Below are positions 21,934-34,642 of a stretch of DNA of 34,830 bases, piece by piece. Within the stretch, counting starts at the first letter, position 1. Every line of letters begins with the position of its first letter. The position numbers were made by a program, and so were the translations under genes. The stretch lies in NCBI GenBank assembly GCA_017462565.1, contig JAFTQW010000018.1, positions 1 to 34,830 on the forward strand. The letters run 5' to 3'. The notes beneath the pieces were generated by a model, which saw nothing but the letters and a program-made list of their open reading frames with translations, did no database searches and had not been told where the DNA came from. The DNA is from Ruminococcus sp. (GTDB taxonomy: Bacteria; Bacillota; Clostridia; Oscillospirales; Ruminococcaceae).

Positions 21934-23409
21934 ATGTCTATTATAAAAATTCAAAATCTTTCATTCGGTTACGATTCCAGCTATGAAAACGTATTTGAAA
22001 ATGTTAATTTACAGCTTGATACCGCCTGGAGGCTCGGTTTTACCGGACGTAACGGACGTGGAAAAACTACTCTTCTCAAAATTCTTATGGGAGAGCTTGA
22101 ATACACCGGAAAAATAATTTCATCGGTCGATTTTGAGTATTTTCCATATGATTCAAAATCTTATTATTTCACGGCGGACGTTATCCACGACATAGCGCCG
22201 CAAGCTGAAGATTGGGAAATCAGACGTGAACTCAGTCTTCTCGAAGCAGACGAAGAGCTTCTTTACCGTCCGTTTGATTTGCTTTCAAACGGTGAACAGA
22301 CCAAAATTCTCATTATCGGAATGTTCCTTCGGGAAAATAGTTTTCTTCTTATTGACGAACCGACCAATCATCTGGATTTTCATGCAAGAGAGCTTCTTGC
22401 CGCCTATCTTAAAAGAAAATCAGGATTCATTCTTGTTTCGCATGACAGAGCTTTTCTTGATTCATGCATAGATCATATTCTTGTTATAAACAAAACAAAT
22501 ATTGAGGTTCAGAAAGGAAATTTCAGTTCCTGGAATGAAAATTGTGAACGCTTGGAACAGTTCGAGCAAAGCCAGAACGAACGTCTGAAAAAAGAAATAC
22601 GTCATCTCGAACAAGCGGCAAAGCGGTCTGCTTCATGGTCGGAAAAAGTTGAGAGCACAAAATACGGTGAAAAAAATTCCGGACTAAGACCGGACAGAGG
22701 CTATATCGGTCATAAAGCGGCTAAAATGATGCAGCGAGCTAAAAGTCAGGAAAATCGTATGAAAAACGCTGTTAATGAAAAATCCGGACTGCTTCACAAT
22801 ATTGAACAATCAGAAGCTCTTAAAATATCTCATTTAAAATATCCACAGAAAATCCTTGTAAGAGCTGATAAGCTTTCCGCTTTTTATGACGGCATTGAAG
22901 TTTTTTCCGATGTTTCATTCCAGATAAATCAGGGAGACCGAATTGCAGTTACAGGCAGAAACGGCTGCGGAAAATCCACTCTTCTGAAACTTATCTGCGG
23001 CGAGGATATTGAAAATACAGGTATTCTTAAAATCGGAAGCGGTCTTAAAATTTCTTATGCATCTCAGGATACATCCAATTTAAATGGAAACTTATCGGAT
23101 TATGCTGAAAAATGTAATGTGGATGAAAGTCTGTTTAAAGCTATTCTTCGCAAACTGGATTTTTCACGGGAGCTTTTCCAGCGTCCGATTGAAAGCTATA
23201 GTCAGGGTCAGAAGAAAAAAGTTGCCCTCGCCAGAAGTTTATCTGAAAAGGCGAATTTATATATCTGGGATGAACCCTTGAATTATATTGACGTTTTATC
23301 AAGAATACAAATAGAAGAATTACTTAAATCATCCGAAGCGTCAATTTTATTTGTTGAACATGACAAACGCTTCTGTGAACAAACTGCTACAAAATATATA
23401 TTATTATAG
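21934..23409 (+). CDS. Lsa-like ABC-F ribosomal protection protein
   Basis: 491 residues from ATG 21934 (CGGAGGG 7 nt upstream); the open frame back to 21784 is leader. Two ABC domains without membrane helices: Walker A GRNGRGKTT (about 38-46) and GRNGCGKST (about 344-352), signatures LSNGEQTKI and YSQGQKKKV, Walker B FLLIDEPTNHLD and LYIWDEPLNYID, with a charged linker (about 195-300) for the ribosomal E/P site. N-terminus (FGYD, WRLGFTGRNG) and size resemble Lsa-type proteins giving lincosamide, streptogramin A and pleuromutilin resistance; a housekeeping role is also possible. Second Walker B has Leu-Asn in place of Thr-Asn. Leader and attenuator suggest antibiotic induction. Confidence 0.85.
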   Translation: MSIIKIQNLSFGYDSSYENVFENVNLQLDTAWRLGFTGRNGRGKTTLLKILMGELEYTGKIISSVDFEYFPYDSKSYYFTADVIHDIAPQAEDWEIRRELSLLEADEELLYRPFDLLSNGEQTKILIIGMFLRENSFLLIDEPTNHLDFHARELLAAYLKRKSGFILVSHDRAFLDSCIDHILVINKTNIEVQKGNFSSWNENCERLEQFEQSQNERLKKEIRHLEQAAKRSASWSEKVESTKYGEKNSGLRPDRGYIGHKAAKMMQRAKSQENRMKNAVNEKSGLLHNIEQSEALKISHLKYPQKILVRADKLSAFYDGIEVFSDVSFQINQGDRIAVTGRNGCGKSTLLKLICGEDIENTGILKIGSGLKISYASQDTSNLNGNLSDYAEKCNVDESLFKAILRKLDFSRELFQRPIESYSQGQKKKVALARSLSEKANLYIWDEPLNYIDVLSRIQIEELLKSSEASILFVEHDKRFCEQTATKYILL

Positions 23410-26795: not shown

Positions 26796-27179
26796 TTATA
26801 TAAGCTTACCATGCTTTTCATAATCTGCAACTTTAATTATCTCATTTTTTTCTCCGACAAAAACTACTCTTGGACGATGAGAAGAAGATTCCTCGGGTGA
26901 CATACTTGCATATGCCATTATAATTACCGTATCACCTTTCTGTCCGGAACGGGCTGCCGCACCGTTGAGACAAATCACTCCGCTACCACGCTCGCCTGCA
27001 ATAACATATGTTTCAATGCGGCTTCCGCTGTTTACATTGACAATATGAACGTGTTCATACTCATAAAGTCCGGCAGCTTCCATAAGCTCTTCATCAATGG
27101 TAACGCTGCCTACATAATTCAGTTCAGCCTGAGTTATAACGGCACGGTGTATCTTACTTTTCAGCATTGATATCTGCAT
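26796..27179 (-). CDS. panD: Aspartate 1-decarboxylase
   Basis: 127 residues. Self-cleaving pyruvoyl enzyme making beta-alanine for pantothenate. Cleavage site Gly24-Ser25 is visible ([10 protein letters not shown]), as are the downstream [17 protein letters not shown] and substrate-pocket [14 protein letters not shown] segments. Third gene of panBCD, 14 nt after panC. Confidence 0.96.
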
Positions 27180-27193
27180 TATACCGTCCTCCC

Positions 27194-28042
27194 TTACACG
27201 TCTTCTGTAAAGAAATTGTCGATAAGACGTGTCCTGCCGATATAAACAGCAATTGCGCAGAGTGCGGGACGGTCAAGCTCTGATATCTGCTGCATTGTTG
27301 CACAATCAACAATTTTTACATAATCTATCTTTGCAAGCGGCTCGGAACTGATATGCTGTTTCATTGCTTCAATTATTGCAGAACAGCTCTTTTCGCCGTT
27401 TTTGACCATACTCATACCAAGAAATATTGATTCGGAAAGAACCAAAGCTGCTTTTCTTTCATCTTCGCTGAGATAAGTGTTTCGTGAACTTTTTGCAAGT
27501 CCGTCAGTTTCACGGACAATAGGGCATCCGATTATTTCTATATCCATATTCAAATCATCTGCCATATGACGGATAACTGCAAGCTGCTGAGCGTCCTTTT
27601 TGCCAAAGTACGCACGATCGGGTTTTACAATGTTAAAAAGCTTTGAAACTACAGTGCATACTCCCCTGAAATGTACAGGACGGCTAAGACCGCAAAGTTC
27701 CTGCGTAAGAACCGTCATGTCAACAAACGATGAAAAGCCTTCGTGATACATCTCCTCGGGTTCGGGATTGAAAATAAGATCACCACCATGTGCTTCAACT
27801 ACCGCTGAATCGAGTTCAATATCACGGGGATAGCTTTCAAGATCCTCCGTAGGTCCGAACTGCATAGGATTCACAAAATCAGATACAACAGTTCTGTCGT
27901 TATCCCTGTGAGACGCTTCAATAAGGCTTGCGTGTCCCTCATGAAGATATCCCATTGTTGGAACAAGACCTACTGTCAGTCCCAGAGCTCTCCATTCTTT
28001 TACCTGACTGCGTACTTCTTCAATAGTTTTAACTATCTTCAC
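27194..28042 (-). CDS. panC: Pantothenate synthetase
   Basis: 282 residues. ATP-dependent ligation of pantoate and beta-alanine. HIGH-like motif HEGH (34-37, [14 protein letters not shown]), [17 protein letters not shown], and KMSKS-like [11 protein letters not shown]. The start overlaps panB by 4 nt (ATGA), so translation is coupled. Standard length, no lesions. Confidence 0.96.
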
Positions 28043-28881
28043 TTCTGATCTTCCTCCTTGATAAGTTCAGCTATTACATCTTCATCTATGCTGTAAGTGT
28101 GTTCCTCCGACGGAAAAGCGCCGGATTTTGTTTCATTTATATAGTCGGTGATACCCTGCCGCATAAGCGTTCCCACATCCGCAAAGCGCTTTACGAATTT
28201 TGGGGTATGGCCTGTTGTCAGTCCAAGCATATCCTGATATACCAGAACCTGTCCGTCGCATCCGCTGCCTGCTCCGATTCCGATAGTAGGAATAGTAAGT
28301 TTTTTTGTTATTATTTCTGCAAGCTTTGCAGGGATTCCTTCAAGTACGACTGCACAAGCTCCGGCATCCTGAATTTTCATTGCGTCGTCTATCAGTTTTC
28401 TTGCATTATCAAGACTTTTGCCCTGAACCTTGAAGCCGCCGAAAGCGTTGACTGACTGCGGCGTCAATCCAAGATGAGCGACAACAGGAACAGAAGCTTT
28501 TACAATAGCGCTTATTCTATCGCAGACATCAGCTCCACCCTCAAGCTTCACTGCATTTGCTCCGCCCTCTTTAATAAGTCGTCCGGCATTTGCTACCGCG
28601 TCCTGAACGCTTACCTGATAAGAGAGAAACGGCATATCCGCTACGACAAAAGCATTTTCCGCACCTCTTGAAACGGCGGCTGTATGATGAATCATATCAT
28701 CCATAGTTACAGGAAGCGTGTTTTCATATCCCAGCATTACCATTCCAAGCGAATCGCCGACCAGAATCGAATTTACTCCGCACTGATCCATTATTTTAGC
28801 CGTGGTATAATCATAAGCGGTAATCATTGTGATCCTGTCTCCGGTTTGCTTCTGCTTAAGCAATGTAGAAATCGTATTCAT
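28039..28881 (-). CDS. panB: 3-methyl-2-oxobutanoate hydroxymethyltransferase
   Basis: 280 residues. Makes ketopantoate from alpha-ketoisovalerate and methylene-tetrahydrofolate, linking this operon to the folate genes just upstream. Conserved [56 protein letters not shown] and [14 protein letters not shown]. First gene of panBCD; AAGGAG 7 nt upstream. Confidence 0.97.
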
Positions 28882-28993: not shown

Positions 28994-29491
28994 TTATTTC
29001 TTTGAAACAGCTTCATAAACGCAGAATTTCACTCCGGGAGTTTTTCCGATGATCGTGGATTCAAGTCTGAAACGATCAATATCTGATCTTGGAAAAAATG
29101 CGTCTCCGTTATAATCTGCGTCTATTTCAGTAAGATAAAGTCTTTGAGCATATTTCATTCCCTGAGAATAAATTCTCTGTCCTCCGCAAAGGAATATCCT
29201 TGGCGGTATTTCATTTTCATCCGCATACTCTTCCCCAAGAGAAATAGCCTCTTCAAGGCTACGTACTGTTCGCAGATTATCACCTGAGAAGTTTTTGCTC
29301 TGCGTAACGATAATATTGAACCTTTCTGGTAAAGGTCTGCCTATTTCTTCATAAGTATTCCGTCCCATTATGACTATGCCGCCCGTAGTTACTTTGCGGA
29401 AATACGCCATATCCTCCGGAATATTCCATGGTATACGTCCGCAGGAGCCAATAACCCCGTTTCTTGCAACGGCTGCAATGATACTAACCAT
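28994..29491 (-). CDS. folA: Dihydrofolate reductase
   Basis: 165 residues. Reduces dihydrofolate to tetrahydrofolate with NADPH. VSIIAAVARNGVIG, then IPWNIPEDMAYFR with the acidic catalytic residue as Glu26 (Glu/Asp both occur), VIMGRNTYEEIG, and FLCGGQRIY for the cofactor. Start overlaps the folB-folK stop by 8 nt. Last gene of the folate operon. Confidence 0.95.
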   Translation of the reverse strand: MVSIIAAVARNGVIGSCGRIPWNIPEDMAYFRKVTTGGIVIMGRNTYEEIGRPLPERFNIIVTQSKNFSGDNLRTVRSLEEAISLGEEYADENEIPPRIFLCGGQRIYSQGMKYAQRLYLTEIDADYNGDAFFPRSDIDRFRLESTIIGKTPGVKFCVYEAVSKK

Positions 29492-30305
29492 TATTTTTCA
29501 GCTTTTCAAGAAGCTGTGCAAGAGTAAGTCCGAGAATAGGATGTCTGTATCCGGGAGCAAGCTCGGCGGCGGGTTCAAGTACAAAAGTACGGTTATGCAT
29601 ATCGGGATGCGGAACTACAAGATCAGGATCATTGATTATCTCGTTATCATATAAAATAAGATCCAGATCCAGCGTTCGTGGTCCCCAGTGGATTTCACGA
29701 ACACGTCCGGCTTCATTTTCAATAGACTGCATAAGGCGAAGCAAACCATGCGGAGAATATATAGTGCGGCAAATTACTGCTCCATTGAGAAAATCCTCCT
29801 GATCAGTGTAACCGTAAGGCTTCGTCACAATAAGCTCGGATTGCTTAACATCTTTGACGTACTCGTTATTAATCAGTTTACCTACAGCTTCTTCAATATA
29901 AGCCCTGCTGTCGCCCATGTTTGAACCAAGAGCGATCACAGCCGTATGCCAGCTTCGATGTATCTTAACTGATACAGAGCCCAATTCCATATCTATAGGA
30001 GCTTCCGGCTTTCTTATTTCAATATCCACACTGTCAACCAATTCATAGGTACGGAGTATAGCTGATGCAACCGACTGGGCAGCAGCTTCAATGAGCTTGT
30101 ATGTGTTTTCAGTCATTACATTTTCGATAAGTTTGCATACGCTGCCGTAGTCCACCGATCGTTCAAGCTCATCGGATATTCCTGCGCTCTCCGTATCAAC
30201 ATAAAGAACCGCATTAACATAGAAATTTTGTCCATTTATATTTTCATGTTCAAAAACGCCGTGATGAGCAAATATTTTCAGATCTTCAATACATATTTTG
30301 TCCAT
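29484..30305 (-). CDS. Bifunctional dihydroneopterin aldolase / HPPK fusion (FolB-FolK)
   Basis: 273 residues. FolB part about 1-115 (CIEDLKIFAHHGVFEHENIN, SVDYGSVCKLIE, KLIEAAAQSVA, IRKPEAPI) makes hydroxymethyl-dihydropterin; FolK part about 118-270 (AVIALGSNMGDSRAYIEEA, TKPYGYTDQEDFLNGA, WGPRTLDLDLILYDN, VPHPDMHNRTFVLEP) pyrophosphorylates it. Direct fusion without a long linker. The start overlaps folP by 20 nt. Confidence 0.95.
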   Translation of the reverse strand: MDKICIEDLKIFAHHGVFEHENINGQNFYVNAVLYVDTESAGISDELERSVDYGSVCKLIENVMTENTYKLIEAAAQSVASAILRTYELVDSVDIEIRKPEAPIDMELGSVSVKIHRSWHTAVIALGSNMGDSRAYIEEAVGKLINNEYVKDVKQSELIVTKPYGYTDQEDFLNGAVICRTIYSPHGLLRLMQSIENEAGRVREIHWGPRTLDLDLILYDNEIINDPDLVVPHPDMHNRTFVLEPAAELAPGYRHPILGLTLAQLLEKLKNNG

Positions 30306-31122
30306 TTGAATATCCTTTCATTATTGCCTGAGTCATTCTGAGCGCACGGACATTTTCCTTAACATCGTGTACTCTGATGAATGAAGCTCCTCTCATTGCT
30401 CCGACTACAGTAACTGCAAGAGTTCCTTCAAGTCTGTCATCAGCGGGCAGATCAAGAGTCAAACCGATTACAGATTTTCTTGAAGCTCCCAGCAATACAG
30501 GATAGCCGAGACTGCTGCGCAGTAAATCAAGACGATCTATCGCTTCCAGATTGTTTTCATATGTTTTGGCAAAGCCTACTCCGGGATCAAGAATTATTTT
30601 ATCACTGCCAATGCCCGCTTTATGAGCAATATCAAGAGTGATTTTTAAATCTGAGATCATATCATCCATGAAATTTACATAGTCGATATTTTTTCTGTTA
30701 TGCATAAGACAGCATGGCAATCCGCTTTCAGCGATAAGCTTTGCCATTTCACCGTTGTCGTATTTAAGTCCCCATATGTCGTTGATAAGATCTGCTCCTG
30801 CTTTTATTCCAGCTTCCGCTACTCTGTATTTATAAGTATCAAGCGACACAGGAATATCAAAACGGCTTTTTACTGCTTCAATTATCGGTACTACTCTGCT
30901 TATTTCCTCGTCATCAGAGATTTTTATATATCCGGGACGAGTGGATTCTCCGCCAATATCTAATATATCCATACCGTCAGCAATCATTTGCTCAACGTGT
31001 TTAAGAGCCGTATCCAAACTATTAAAAGCTCCTCCGTCCGAAAAAGAATCAGGAGTAAAATTAAGTATTCCCATTATATAACAGTTATTCTCAGTATCAA
31101 ATTCTTTGTTTCCGATAAGCAT
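30286..31122 (-). CDS. folP: Dihydropteroate synthase
   Basis: 278 residues. Condenses the FolK product with p-aminobenzoate; target of sulfonamides. MGILNFTPDSFSDGG, ILDIGGESTRPG, VSLDTYKYRVA, LINDIWGL, LDPGVGFAKT, LLGASRKSVIG and FIRVHDVKEN all present. Starts 3 nt after the HD-domain gene. Confidence 0.96.
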   Translation of the reverse strand: MLIGNKEFDTENNCYIMGILNFTPDSFSDGGAFNSLDTALKHVEQMIADGMDILDIGGESTRPGYIKISDDEEISRVVPIIEAVKSRFDIPVSLDTYKYRVAEAGIKAGADLINDIWGLKYDNGEMAKLIAESGLPCCLMHNRKNIDYVNFMDDMISDLKITLDIAHKAGIGSDKIILDPGVGFAKTYENNLEAIDRLDLLRSSLGYPVLLGASRKSVIGLTLDLPADDRLEGTLAVTVVGAMRGASFIRVHDVKENVRALRMTQAIMKGYSNGQNMY

Positions 31123-31125
31123 GAT

Positions 31126-31623
31126 CTACACCTCTATTTTCATATTTCTTTTTTCATCAGACCAGTTACAATCTTCCTGTGCAGGACAGCAAAAACACAG
31201 CCGTGATTTTTTATCCGCTCTGTAAAATATCTCTTCCAGAGAGCAGTCATCTCCGATTTTATTCCGATGACTTCCGATAAGACTGAGTATTTTCTCTTTC
31301 ATTTCTTCATCGCACCCGACTTCGCTCAGTATAACTTCCGCTTTACGAATTCCGGCTTCATCGTGAGGAACACCGCTGATATACTCGTCAGTTCTTCCTA
31401 TATCATGAAGCAAGGCTGCTGAATATACAACGTCAGGGTCAGCATAAACCCTCTTTTGACTGCACATTATAAGCGTTATTCGTGCAACATTGAGAAAATG
31501 TTCAATATTATGCCTGCAAAATATACGATCGTGTTCAAGCTCCGCAAGCAATTTAAGCTCATTAAGATATTTACCGCAGACAATTATTCTGTTAGTTATT
31601 TTAAGTTTCAAATTATCCCTCAT
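31126..31623 (-). CDS. HD-domain protein of the folate operon
   Basis: 165 residues from ATG 31623 (MRDNLKL); no good RBS there, and the open frame to a TTG at 31677 has only a weak one, so the start is uncertain. HD phosphohydrolase core: HDRIFCRHNIEHFLNVARI and AALLHDIGRTDEY provide the metal-binding His/HD, then SHRNKI. C-terminus is Cys-rich (LCFCCPAQEDC). HD proteins between folE and folP recur in Clostridia. Folate synthesis needs a phosphatase for dihydroneopterin triphosphate; no Nudix gene is visible, so it could fill that step, but this is inference. Confidence 0.75.
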   Translation of the reverse strand: MRDNLKLKITNRIIVCGKYLNELKLLAELEHDRIFCRHNIEHFLNVARITLIMCSQKRVYADPDVVYSAALLHDIGRTDEYISGVPHDEAGIRKAEVILSEVGCDEEMKEKILSLIGSHRNKIGDDCSLEEIFYRADKKSRLCFCCPAQEDCNWSDEKRNMKIEV

Positions 31624-31749
31624 TCTGTTATCAGGTGTATATTTTCTCCGATTTGCCACAGTTACAGTACGGATCAATTGAAATTCCGACTCTTTGCATA
31701 AACTTTCCCCAAACCCCGATATAATAAGAATCCATCAGCTTAGAATCTA

Positions 31750-32343
31750 TTATAAACACTCTCCTTTTGTTGAATCCATAACCAGACTCTGCAAAAACGA
31801 ATCGTTTTCATATTCTCCGCAGAACGTAGCAGTAGTCGTCTTAGCAGGAAGATTACGTATTCCCCTTGCCGTCATACAGCTATGCGAAGCGGTGATAACA
31901 ACACCTACATCTTCCGAACCCGTTGCCTCTTTCATAATATCAGCAATATCCTGTCCGAGACGCTCCTGCAATTGCAGACGTTTTGCTGCCATATCGCATA
32001 TACGTGCGATTTTACTCAGCCCGATAACTCTTCCTTTCGGAAGATAAGAAACATTTACGTGCATATCATACATAAGAGCCATATGATGTTCGCAATAGCT
32101 GTATACGCTGATGTCACGCACCGTTACCGCAGAACTTTTTCCGTTTGCAAAGCTTTCCTCAAAGGTTTTTCCGAACATCTGCGCTATCTCATGGTTACTG
32201 TAAGAAATACCCTCGAATACCTCTGCATACATTCTTGCTACACGATCCGGCGTTTCCAGCAGCCCTTCACGGTCAGGATCTTCACCCAACGCCTCCAGAA
32301 TACCACGAATATGATATGCAATTTTTTTCTGATCAACTGCCAT
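31750..32343 (-). CDS. folE: GTP cyclohydrolase I
   Basis: 197 residues. Opens GTP to dihydroneopterin triphosphate, the shared precursor of folate and of queuosine (preQ0/preQ1). Zinc ligands Cys84 and His87 in YSYCEHHM and Cys156 in [21 protein letters not shown] and [20 protein letters not shown] are intact. AAGGAG lies 7-10 nt upstream of the ATG. 38 nt after the queE remnant and upstream of the folate genes, so it links two pathways. Confidence 0.97.
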
Positions 32344-32381
32344 TTTTATACGCTCCTTTATACTCCCCGTTTATCCGGCTT

Positions 32382-32965
32382 TCAGATATATTTATGAAGA
32401 TGTAACTGTAACCTTACACCATTAAATTTTTTCTTTTTCATAAATTCTACTATATCTCCGGGATTAATCTGCCAGTATAATGGACTGAAATATACATGAC
32501 ATATGCTGCATAAATTATATTTTCCTATCCATTTTTCTGCACGTTTCAGATCTTTTCTCGAACCTGATATAAATTTTATGCAATTCTGTTTTTAAGAAAT
32601 TTAATATTATCATCAAGCCGCATATTATCTTCCATACCGTTTCCCGAAAGCTTGTAATCCAATGTAATAATTATACGGTCATGTATACCCATAAAATTGC
32701 CGTTTGCAGCAGCGGCAAGTATATCAACGATCCGCCCCGTGAGCGTTGCATTTTAGATTCCTGTATCTTCAGTCAGCCTGCGAATCTTTTCTGCTGTCAT
32801 TTCCGTATAAAAAGCGTCGATCTCATTTTGCCCAGAGAGTATCACAACAGCTGCATCGGAGATTACATCTGCATGGTCTCTTATGAAGTAAGATAACTCA
32901 CCTGCTCTTGTACCCTTTCTGTTAATGCTCACAAAACATTCCGCCTCATGATATGTTTTTTCCAT
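32382..32965 (-). pseudogene. queE: Decayed queE (7-carboxy-7-deazaguanine synthase)
   Basis: All three minus-strand frames together spell QueE, with lesions. From ATG 32965: CFVSINRKGTRAGELSYFIR; then, in another frame, the radical-SAM cluster CNLRCSCCDTLWAK; then EIDAFYTEMTAEKIRRLTED followed by a stop; then TLTG, an apparent deletion, and IIITLDYKLSGNGMEDNMRL; then, after another frame change near 32585, KFISGSRKDLKRAEKWIGKY, YFSPLYWQINPGDIVEFM and VRLQLHLHKYI, ending at 32382. At least three frame changes, one in-frame stop and one internal deletion: it cannot give active enzyme. QueE makes CDG, the precursor of preQ0, from carboxytetrahydropterin. Confidence 0.85.
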
Positions 32966-32974
32966 TCCATAAAA

Positions 32975-33165
32975 TTATCTCTCATAAACTGCGCAATTTT
33001 CGGGTGTTTCGTATACTGCAATAAGATGCACAGGAAAACCTTCTTTATCCATAACAATTGCTTCTGTCTTACAGCAATAACCGTGAAGATCAGCAAAATT
33101 TTCATTATAACCGCTGAGAACAACTTGCGCTGTCAAAAGGACGCAGGCGGTTTCAGATAATACAT
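32975..33165 (-). pseudogene. queD: Decayed queD (6-carboxytetrahydropterin synthase)
   Basis: A start ATG at 33165 (GGAAGA upstream) begins MYYL; after a frame change the sequence reads LSETACVLLTAQVVLSGYNE, NFADLHGY (the N-terminal QueD block where the zinc His residues should lie, partly lost), then jumps across an internal deletion to GFPVHLIAVYETPENCAVYE at the stop, which is the normal QueD C-terminus. Only about 63 codons remain of some 120-165. Stop lies 9 nt before the queE remnant, the usual queD-queE order. The identification rests on the C-terminal ETPENCAVYE block, the degenerate N-terminus and the context. Confidence 0.7.
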
Positions 33166-33181
33166 AAAATCTTCCGGAAAA

Positions 33182-33209
33182 GCGGCTTTCCTATATAAAA
33201 GAAAGCCGC
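33182..33209 (-). terminator. Terminator hairpin before queD remnant, likely riboswitch expression platform
   Basis: 9-bp perfect stem (GCGGCTTTC / GAAAGCCGC, 10-nt loop) followed by TTTT on the minus strand, 16 nt before the queD start. Placed where the terminator of a preQ1 riboswitch would lie, but now separated from the aptamer by a MITE. Confidence 0.6.
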
Positions 33210-33218
33210 CTTATTCTC

Positions 33219-33380
33219 AAAACCTGTCTTCACAAGATTTGTGCGTAGATTTTCGGGCAAATTTAGCTGAGGACAAGACAAAATTTCACAGACCTACTAA
33301 CGCAAGTCAAGAAATTTTAACACAGTAATCGGCAAAATTTGACGAAAAGATGCGTGCAATATCTTGTGTAGACAAGTTCT
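33219..33380. repeat. MITE family copy 1
   Basis: About 162 bp with imperfect terminal inverted repeats (AACCTGTCTTCACAAGAT and its counterpart at the other end). Same family as 33581-33743 and 34481-34642. It lies between the preQ1 aptamer and the queD terminator hairpin. Confidence 0.8.
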
Positions 33381-33398
33381 CATTATTATATTCCAACT

Positions 33399-33442
33399 GC
33401 CCGGTTTTGTTTTATGACAGGATGGTGCAAACGAACTGTCAT
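33399..33442 (-). promoter_or_regulatory. preQ1-I riboswitch aptamer (candidate)
   Basis: Minus strand: P1 stem ATGACAG / CTGTCAT (7 bp, perfect), 15-nt loop beginning TTCG and ending ACCATC, then an A-rich tail AAAACAAAACC. This is the pattern of preQ1-I aptamers (GUUCG..ACCAUCC loop and an A-rich 3' tail); GUUU in the loop can pair with AAAC in the tail for the H-type pseudoknot. It starts within a few bases of the transcription start predicted from the promoter at 33447, and the first genes downstream are queD and queE remnants. Found by eye; a covariance-model score would settle it. Confidence 0.72.
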
Positions 33443-33446
33443 ATTT

Positions 33447-33475
33447 ATTATATCATACAAAAAAAGCAATGTCAA
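33447..33475 (-). promoter_or_regulatory. Consensus promoter of the former que-folE operon
   Basis: Minus-strand TTGACA, 17-nt spacer, TATAAT, perfectly conserved. Transcription would start at about 33440, at the 5' edge of the preQ1 aptamer. I see no other promoter as good closer to folE, so folE may still depend on it. Confidence 0.82.
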
Positions 33476-33580
33476 CATGATATGTTAAAAATCACAGGGC
33501 AGCTGAATGAAAAAGTCATCATCAAAATAGCAACAAAAACGTTTATATTTCATAATCATTTTAGTTAACTTAAATTAATT

Positions 33581-33743
33581 AGAATCTGTCTTCATAAAAT
33601 TTGTGCGTGGATTTTCGGGCATAATTTTACCAAAAGCAAGGCGAAAAAGCGAAAGCATACTGCCGTATGGTGAGCTTTTTCAACACAGCTATCGGTAAAA
33701 TTTGCCGAAAGGGCACGTGCAATAGCCTATGAACACAAGTTCT
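33581..33743. repeat. MITE family copy 2
   Basis: 163 bp, the most diverged of the three copies in its middle, with ends AGAATCTGTCTTCATAAAAT and GCAATAGCCTATGAACACAA. Lies 49 bp after the DUF4097 stop. Confidence 0.78.
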
Positions 33744-33792: not shown

Positions 33793-34455
33793 TTATTCGT
33801 TTAAAAATTCAATATTAACATCGCCGTTATTAGCAAACACGTTCAGCGTTTTTTCACCGCCGTCTTTATTATCCGGCAGATTGCTCTTGCCTTTTTTTAT
33901 TTCGGACTGAATAGAAAAATCGTCATAGCTTCCGACAACCGTTCCCGAAATATCTCCATTTTTAACATTAAGAGTCAAATTGCTGCCTACATCTAAATTT
34001 TCAAAAACAATATTCCCTCCATTAGAAGAGATATTTGCACTTCCGGCTAAAGCCAATACAGAAAATGTTATATCCTCGTTTGTTGTAGATAGTGTAAGAT
34101 TGTTCAAAAGTGCGTCCGGTATTTGCAGCGATATTTTCCGATCTTCGGCAGAGGTTTTTACTCCAATATAATCCGTCCACTCTTTATCGCTTGCACTCGT
34201 CATAGTCAGCACATTTTCATCAGAAACGGAAATATCATAATACTCTTTGTTGTTTTCAAAATATTGAATATGTATCTGCTCGTCCTCAGACGCCGACACT
34301 TCAATTTCTCTGTCCCGTATATCAAGATTGATTTCATTGATCTGCGTATCAGACGTATAATTTTTCTCCTCAAATGGTTCGCTGTTGTTTGAGCAGCCAG
34401 ACAAAATAGAACTGCCCAGTACAAGACACAATGCAAGTGATATAGTTCTCTTCAT
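33793..34455 (-). CDS. DUF4097-type lipoprotein
   Basis: 220 residues with a lipoprotein signal (MKRTISLALCLVLGSSILSG, lipobox Cys21) and a beta-strand repeat domain (about 40-215: NLTLSTTNEDITFSVLALAG, SANISSNGGNIVFENLDVGS, LTLNVKNGDISG, NVFANNGDVNIEFL) of the DUF4097 adhesin-like type. Expected on the outer face of the membrane; role unknown. GGAGG 7 nt upstream of the ATG. Flanked by MITE copies; copy 3 ends 25 bp upstream of the start, so it probably occupies the native promoter region. Confidence 0.75.
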   Translation of the reverse strand: MKRTISLALCLVLGSSILSGCSNNSEPFEEKNYTSDTQINEINLDIRDREIEVSASEDEQIHIQYFENNKEYYDISVSDENVLTMTSASDKEWTDYIGVKTSAEDRKISLQIPDALLNNLTLSTTNEDITFSVLALAGSANISSNGGNIVFENLDVGSNLTLNVKNGDISGTVVGSYDDFSIQSEIKKGKSNLPDNKDGGEKTLNVFANNGDVNIEFLNE

Positions 34456-34480: not shown

Positions 34481-34642
34481 AGAACCTGTCTTCACAAGAT
34501 TTGTGCGTAGATTTTCGAGCAAATTTTACCGGGAATAAGGCAAAATTTCGCAGACTTGCTGTCGCAATTCAAGAAATTTTAACGTAATCATCGGTAAAAT
34601 TTGCTGAAAAGATATGTGCAATATCTTGTGAAGATAGGTTCT
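34481..34642. repeat. MITE family copy 3
   Basis: 162 bp with good inverted ends (AGAACCTGTCTTCACAAGAT versus AGAACCTATCTTCACAAGAT on the opposite strand), closely similar to copy 1. Confidence 0.82.

Follow-up and report, generated by a model that had tools for sequence, protein, structure and literature searches.

Probable remains of a preQ1-riboswitch-controlled operon in front of intact folate genes in a Ruminococcus genome

The preQ1 attenuator of Bacillus subtilis precedes the queC operon. This class I element has a type II aptamer and controls transcription with the help of a downstream terminator (PMC11625349). Type I aptamers of the same class are described as having UU after the 5' strand of P1 and UC before its 3' strand (PMC11625349, PMC8752633), an A-rich L3, a conserved C followed by UA in the 3' tail, and a P2 formed between the P1 loop and the tail (PMC11625349). 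As for gene loss, a gut-bacterial preQ1-salvage genotype has been described as variant Ap, and 601 of 2,228 genomes were counted as able to salvage preQ1 (PMC6593275); another riboswitch-controlled gene has been reported to be inactivated by duplication (PMC8546581).

The locus described here shares with type I aptamers (RF00522) the plan of an H-type pseudoknot, the UU and UC, the A-rich L3, the C of the tail, and the queuosine genes downstream. It differs from them in an L3 that exceeds the Rfam consensus by about 4 bases, in the length of the loop that separates the two P1 strands (15 bases for the class of the window and 12 for the other class), in CCA (CCG in the window itself) where type I prefers CUA, in a covarying P2, and in a score below the Rfam gathering value. 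As in the B. subtilis attenuator, control would be exerted on transcription with a downstream terminator, here a predicted one; unlike the B. subtilis operon, the present one is decayed and includes folE as well as, in this lineage, genes for folate and pantothenate synthesis. As in variant Ap, queA and tgt are kept, queC and queE are lost, and QueT is present, whereas the loss here is caught with the old operon leader and the relics in place. Among the papers found by literature searches, none has a title or abstract describing the decay of this operon or this leader class, part of which may be included in the alignments behind the type I to III consensus models. These models reportedly come from one earlier paper. 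The kind of element itself is already known; what appears to be new is a preQ1 leader that has been orphaned or captured and whose branch is not called by the Rfam model.

The window, that is, the whole stretch of 34,830 nucleotides that was analyzed, is contig C43 of a Ruminococcus sp. genome (G000; 2,630,396 bases, 66 contigs, completeness 99.99%). It very probably contains the remains of an operon for the queuosine precursor preQ1 that was controlled by a preQ1 riboswitch. The features of this region are the following:

33447..33475, minus strand: sigma-70 type promoter TTGACA-17-TATAAT with TG before the -10 hexamer (12/12 matches)
33398..33441, minus strand: putative aptamer of preQ1 class I, type-I-like (R2 model, 59.1 bits, E 6.3e-15)
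33224..33380, no strand assigned: MITE copy of 157 bases between the aptamer and the terminator-like hairpin (repeats in the same genome)
33181..33210, minus strand: terminator-like hairpin upstream of queD, with a short U tract behind it (-19.3 kcal/mol, z -5.78)
32975..33165, minus strand: queD relic (alignment to the intact queD of the sister genome)
32358..32970, minus strand: queE relic (alignment to the sister; TIGR03963 matches)
31750..32343, minus strand: folE, GTP cyclohydrolase I, intact (PF01227, 5.1e-62)
about 31627..31742, minus strand: 3' relic of queF, ends approximate (alignment to the sister)
31126..31623, minus strand: HD-domain protein (PF01966, 1.9e-10; start from the sister alignment)
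30286..31122, minus strand: folP, dihydropteroate synthase (TIGR01496, 8.2e-92)
29484..30305, minus strand: folB-folK fusion (TIGR01498, 1.5e-40; TIGR00525, 5.6e-34)
28994..29491, minus strand: dihydrofolate reductase, folA (models from 4.4e-35, all those shown below their cut-offs)
26796..28881, minus strand: panB, panC, and panD, pantothenate (TIGR00222, 1e-104; TIGR00018, 2.2e-100; TIGR00223, 1.3e-50)

The promoter at 33475-33447 is the sole site above 9/12 in 31600-33560, and its hexamers and spacing are identical in the sister genome G031. A weak 9/12 promoter-like site inside the queE relic (32502-32474) does not exceed the chance expectation. The element between the aptamer and the hairpin is short and non-coding and matches its own opposite strand, i.e., has inverted ends, and it is present in many copies, as is characteristic of MITEs; 34 matches were found in the same genome, 14 of them near full length and some of the short ones representing both strands of one copy. 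In the alignment with the leader of G031, the MITE is absent from the sister; apart from it and small changes, the two leaders resemble each other. Two further MITE copies are located within 1.3 kb of the first one (33586-33743 and 34486-34642 of the window), and between these two, a weakly LiaG-like protein is encoded on the minus strand (33793-34455; 1.4e-6, below the cut-off).

Frames on the minus strand from 33190 to 32385 contain pieces of QueD and QueE. Pfam searches with single relic pieces gave little (the queD piece alone has a weak match, 0.14), and the identity of the relics was settled by base-by-base alignment to the sister, together with synteny. Compared with the sister, the queD relic has two 1-base insertions and an internal deletion of 231 bases, and the queE relic has several frame-breaking indels, an in-frame stop, and deletions. 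Pieces of the latter match the NCBIfam clostridial QueE model TIGR03963 (4.1e-23 for 32385-32591, 2.6e-5, and 0.0024), and the QueE of G031 is 80% identical to the last piece of the relic. The gene order in G031 is queD-queE-folE-queC-queF-HD-folP-folBK-folA-panB-panC, with the same promoter and aptamer (QueF: TIGR03139, 3e-52). In the window, about 1 kb is missing in two parts of 201 and 805 bases with a few aligned bases between them; this deletion begins directly after the folE stop and ends inside queF, so that queC and most of queF have been removed; the order of HD, folP, folB-folK, folA, panB, and panC is the same in both genomes. The lesions lie at the place where relatives have intact genes, and the genome shows no other queE match and no queC over the family cut-off, as is typical of pseudogenes. 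The folE gene is under strong purifying selection: dN and dS relative to the sister are 0.013 and 0.470, and its divergence at codon positions 1, 2, and 3 is 0.5, 1.0, and 24.4%, compared to 16.1, 11.3, and 19.4% for queD and 13.6, 9.0, and 24.2% for queE.

These data bear out the original prediction, made from the letters alone, with respect to a consensus promoter on the minus strand, a MITE in the leader, a terminator-like hairpin, queD and queE remnants with frame changes, a stop, and deletions, and an intact folE joined to folate genes. The former queD-queE-folE operon that it proposed is found intact with the same leader in the sister, and the three genes lie on one strand in 29/29 fetched congener loci, queC being with them in 25/29. 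The loss of some 1 kb downstream of folE, with queC and most of queF, and the short queF relic (about 31742-31627) go beyond that first reading. As for its further claim that synthesis is lost and salvage possible, the whole genome contains one folE (a single PF01227 match), one tgt with queA about 1.4 kb before it, and one queT. A search of this genome with the last piece of the relic gave no second queE match, and no queC over the family cut-off was detected in it (four weak matches). These negative results for queE and queC, together with the presence of tgt, queA, and queT, support a loss of de novo synthesis with a possible salvage route, as had been claimed.

The aptamer at 33398-33441 comprises P1 (UGACAG/CUGUCA), the loop UUCGUUUGCACCAUC, an A-rich L3, and the P2 strand GGGC. 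RF00522 has no match in the window at the gathering score, and a relaxed limit of E 10 likewise gave no match in 33180-33560; the aptamer site is also absent from 8 weak RF00522 matches in the same genome (150 of 438 candidates scored), and 32 motif-bearing relatives and 8 queT loci remain below the gathering score (39 bits). The R2 model, based on 17 sequences with the 15-base loop, all from outside the window's family, finds 33398-33441 on the minus strand at 59.1 bits (E 6.3e-15), the next match in the window having 17.9 bits. This second match (22387-22427, E 0.0015) was rejected as a chance one; it lies inside a 541-aa open reading frame. Thus, the check suggested along with the original prediction, RF00522 at 33380-33460, gave no match with Rfam's own covariance model, and taken literally the prediction needs amending on this point, but the preQ1-I-type aptamer itself is supported by the R2 match, by covariation, and by gene context. 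The R1 model, which served for genome searches, was made from 27 motif sequences before queD, the window included; it revealed 58 places at E < 0.001 in 45 of 398 phylum genomes, the window's genome among them. The motif precedes queD in 26/29 congener loci. Of the three others, L011 has no motif copy, and the genome of L030 has a partial motif match near the start of another contig. In L034, the usual place upstream of queD has no aptamer, but a partial copy on the opposite strand, as if inverted, can be noted there by eye.

Helix P1 and pseudoknot P2 are backed by three sets of sequences: 14 from the genus, 53, and 17 from outside the window's family. In the 53 sequences, taken without the window, 99.2% of the P1 and P2 cells are paired, 6 pairs are changed on both sides with 48 such cells, and the covariation score is 0.269, slid versions scoring far lower; each of these four values was reached by 0/500 shuffles, a kind of shuffle that does not preserve relatedness. 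For P2 alone, 4/4 pairs are changed on both sides with 99.5% of cells paired among the 53 sequences, and 2/4 with 100% paired among the 17 outside the genus; one P2 pair is represented by C-G 24, U-A 18, U-G 7, and G-C 4 times in the set of 53. The number of further pair types was matched by 65/500 (n = 14), 33/500 (n = 53), and 36/500 (n = 17) of the shuffles, and in the set of 17, 9/500 shuffles reached the observed count of pairs with changes in both partners. Thirteen rows that were impossible to align without gaps were set aside, and the window, one base short, was excluded from A4. We discarded a simpler P2 in which UUUG would pair with CAAA, because changes in UUUG have no counterpart in CAAA and L036 has no UUUG.

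Two classes of the loop between the P1 strands can be distinguished, one of 12 bases (mostly UUCGNNACCAUC) and the other of 15 bases (mostly UUCGUUUGYRCCAUC). L066, which has a 12-base loop, aligns to RF00522 over the full length (22.4 bits, E 0.0071) with four extra L3 bases, and R2 recovers 15/15 tested loci with 12- or 13-base loops at E < 1e-9; these two results link the series to class I. The link to type I is provided by the UU, UC, and tail C hallmarks. The UU after the 5' strand of P1 and the UC before its 3' strand are present in 33398-33441 and invariant in the alignments; in the 3' tail after the A-rich L3, the C is present, within CCA in most of the genus, CCG in the window, and CUA in the 12-base class. 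One base between L3 and P2 is lost in the window (CCGGGC vs. CCAGGGC in the sister), and the outer P1 pair is U-A instead of the sister's U-G; P1 and P2 are still able to form. From sequence comparison, the element is best read as a type-I-like riboswitch of preQ1 class I that has longer loops and falls below the Rfam threshold.

A DNA-pattern scan blind to genes yielded at least 120 contigs with the motif. Among the matches listed, a gene of the queuosine pathway follows on the same strand within 2.5 kb in 116 of 120 contigs, a figure that stands without a background set of loci. For 81 of these 116 listed matches, the assignment is based on an E 1e-4 match to reference genes known behind the motif elsewhere, and each of the 81 includes QueD, QueC, QueT, or Vut_1; for the other 35 of the listed 116, the QueT and Vut_1 references were drawn from the unmatched contigs themselves, and Pfam confirms the family for 4/5 of those references. 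Three of the four listed contigs that have no queuosine gene have under 250 bases left, and the fourth, L218, has a lipoprotein-like frame. The first genes behind the motif were scanned in 25 loci (29 fetched phylum loci besides the window's, four near-duplicates being left out) and belong to the families QueT (6), Vut_1 (4), QueF (3), PTPS (3), HGD-D (2), nucleoside hydrolase (1), and radical SAM (1), five having no Pfam family. The motif is widespread in Clostridia. Since this common preQ1-type leader scores too low to be called by the standard RNA model, queuosine regulation in Clostridia is probably under-annotated.

The small first genes of L050, L054, L057, L064, and L073 have no Pfam family and are weakly similar to the archaeosine radical SAM protein RaSEA; their products are likely to be QueL-like. 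In L062, L071, L144, and L223, the motif precedes a gene of the HGD-D family, which is weakly double-cubane-reductase-like in L062 and is followed by queD and queE matches in L144 and L223; possibly, it encodes an unrecognised enzyme of queuosine metabolism. Among the matches listed, the motif also occurs in records labelled Treponema, Paludibacteraceae, and Bacteroidales (L136, L173, L176, and L191). This can be explained either by transfer between phyla or by misbinned contigs.

The leader of queT in the window's genome (L120, 912-967; C32) contains GCGAG, UUCGUAACCAUC, CUCGC, a stem inside L3, and then AAUCAAAACUAAGGAG, with a Shine-Dalgarno sequence at the place of GGGC, the P2 strand. Leaders of this build, with the same core loop, were also noted in L116, L117, L119, L121, L122, L123, and L245-L248. 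The extra stem in L3 is predicted by single-sequence folds in 6/6 distinct queT leaders of the genus, its sequence differing among them. The pattern of the queT leader was found in 5/391 class genomes from three genera, with one match each and none in the reversed control; the frames behind it appear QueT-like by eye in 4/5 cases, another frame having been picked in L247. Rfam makes no call in the 8 queT loci scanned, RF00522 scores the queT leader of the window's genome at 15.9 bits (C32:107706-107768), and R2 detects queT leaders weakly or not at all. A stem inside L3 of class I is not mentioned in the part of PMC11625349 consulted, a result that concerns that paper and not the whole literature. 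The queT leader might be an offshoot, with an extra stem inside L3, of a large long-L3 branch of class I switches in Clostridia; this suggestion forms one part of the reading, treated below, in which the window's leader still works, and it is jointly with that reading a tentative one.

In the ancestral state, the transcript would have started at the perfect promoter and run through the type-I-like aptamer of preQ1 class I. Binding of preQ1 would lock the GGGC strand into the P2 pseudoknot and block an antiterminator, and the terminator would then halt transcription before queD-queE-folE-queC-queF, so that the leader would have acted as an off-switch. A script with permissive thresholds, run without shuffled controls, was applied to 26 leaders, those of 25 congeners and that of the window; all 26 have a T-run hairpin before queD, and in 26/26, the P2 strand and the following bases can pair into the 5' arm of the hairpin as an antiterminator; 4 of 30 leaders are outside the motif pattern used (L011, L015, L030, and L034), L015 bearing the motif with extra bases. 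In the common lineage of the window and the sister, the folate and pantothenate cluster is placed directly behind queF, and queT is present in both. De novo synthesis may then have become dispensable in the lineage of the window, where queD and queE have degenerated, a deletion has removed queC and most of queF, and the leader has acquired the MITE; preQ1 would now be salvaged by way of QueT, Tgt, and QueA. In this one genome, folE was most simply kept because the folate genes still need its product. The sister pair would thus represent the states before and after a switch from making to importing a precursor of a tRNA modification, with a plausible reason for the survival of the one shared enzyme gene.

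The present state of the leader is a separate matter, for its aptamer and promoter now front folate and pantothenate genes. We consider it unlikely, though worth stating, that the leader still works, QueT-imported preQ1 turning down folate and pantothenate synthesis, which would make it a riboswitch captured by another pathway. That the leader no longer switches, the folate and pantothenate genes being transcribed from another promoter and the promoter, aptamer, and hairpin merely persisting through a recent decay, has a probability that we would put slightly short of even; what is left beside these two readings includes partial function. A leader that has stopped switching might now act as a fixed attenuator. 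A dead leader is suggested by the MITE within it and by the changed antiterminator partner: the bases just before the 5' arm of the hairpin differ from those of the sister, and the antiterminator looks weakened. The tract of the window's hairpin consists of 4 T, and a stricter terminator scan, which needs 5 T, does not list this hairpin. Excess conservation of the leader over the relics, which would be a sign of present function, is not significant (6/95 changed positions in the promoter and aptamer vs. 62/524 in the relics, p 0.07, the lost base being scored as a substitution). Because of the MITE, the changed antiterminator partner, and the lack of significant extra conservation, control of folate by preQ1 today can be called only possible. 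Against a dead leader, however, 31600-33560 contains no strong promoter-like site upstream of folE other than the 12/12 site, whose hexamers are those of the sister, P1 and P2 can still be formed with an outer pair U-A where the sister has U-G, and folE is under strong selection. The locus may serve as a test bed for the fate of a riboswitch once its pathway dies; if the leader works, the riboswitch has outlived its own pathway and been captured by another, and this can be seen beside an intact relative.

THF riboswitches exist, and with this precedent and folE in the operon in 29/29 fetched congener loci, the aptamer might be thought to sense another compound of the pterin or folate branch. 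We regard this as highly improbable: the motif also occurs before QueT, Vut_1 (YhhQ), QueF, and nucleoside hydrolase genes, the loop UUCGUAACCAUC recurs before the queT of the same genome with a Shine-Dalgarno sequence at the place of the P2 strand, and RF00522 aligns to the relative L066 over its full length. The probability is close to negligible that the decay is simulated by a duplicated fragment or by an error of sequencing or assembly and that a working que set exists elsewhere in the genome. The assembly does consist of 66 contigs, but its completeness is 99.99%, it contains one queE match (the relic), no queC over the cut-off, and a single folE, and the large deletions, the MITE, and many indels are located at the original syntenic place.

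In a survey of 60 genomes of the genus, folE was found in 52 (once in 51 of them and twice in G016), tgt in 53, QueT in 8, Vut_1 in 1, folP in 21, and the aptamer motif in 49, one of these being a partial match. Fifty genomes have folE and neither QueT nor Vut_1. Seven genomes (G020, G028, G030, G034, G067, G071, and G081; 79 to 100% complete, several of them 79-90%) have no folE, folP, or aptamer, and a QueT or Vut_1 gene is present in each of them; queE was not found in the four of them that were searched (G020, G028, G030, and G034). The genome of the window and that of the sister are the only two of the 60 with folE, folP, and a transporter (QueT). Hence, in 7/7 cases where folE is lost and a transporter is present, folP is absent, and folE is kept in the only genome that combines broken que genes with folP. 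G060 has no folE and has folP as well as an aptamer close to a contig start; this genome is in 440 contigs, and its que operon may sit in an assembly gap. Among the 21 genomes with folP, this gene adjoins the que operon only in the window's genome and the sister; in G082, it shares a contig with folE at a distance of about 25 kb, and in 17/21 genomes, it is on another contig than folE, where adjacency across contig ends is still possible. The linkage of folate genes with the preQ1 operon seems to be peculiar to the lineage of the window and the sister. In 32 of the 60 genomes, folE is present without a folP match and may be needed there for queuosine alone. In G016, queE and folE have two matches each (C203 and C218). 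In G066, a folE match contains an in-frame TGA (C22, 40535-41086), which is perhaps another decay in progress.
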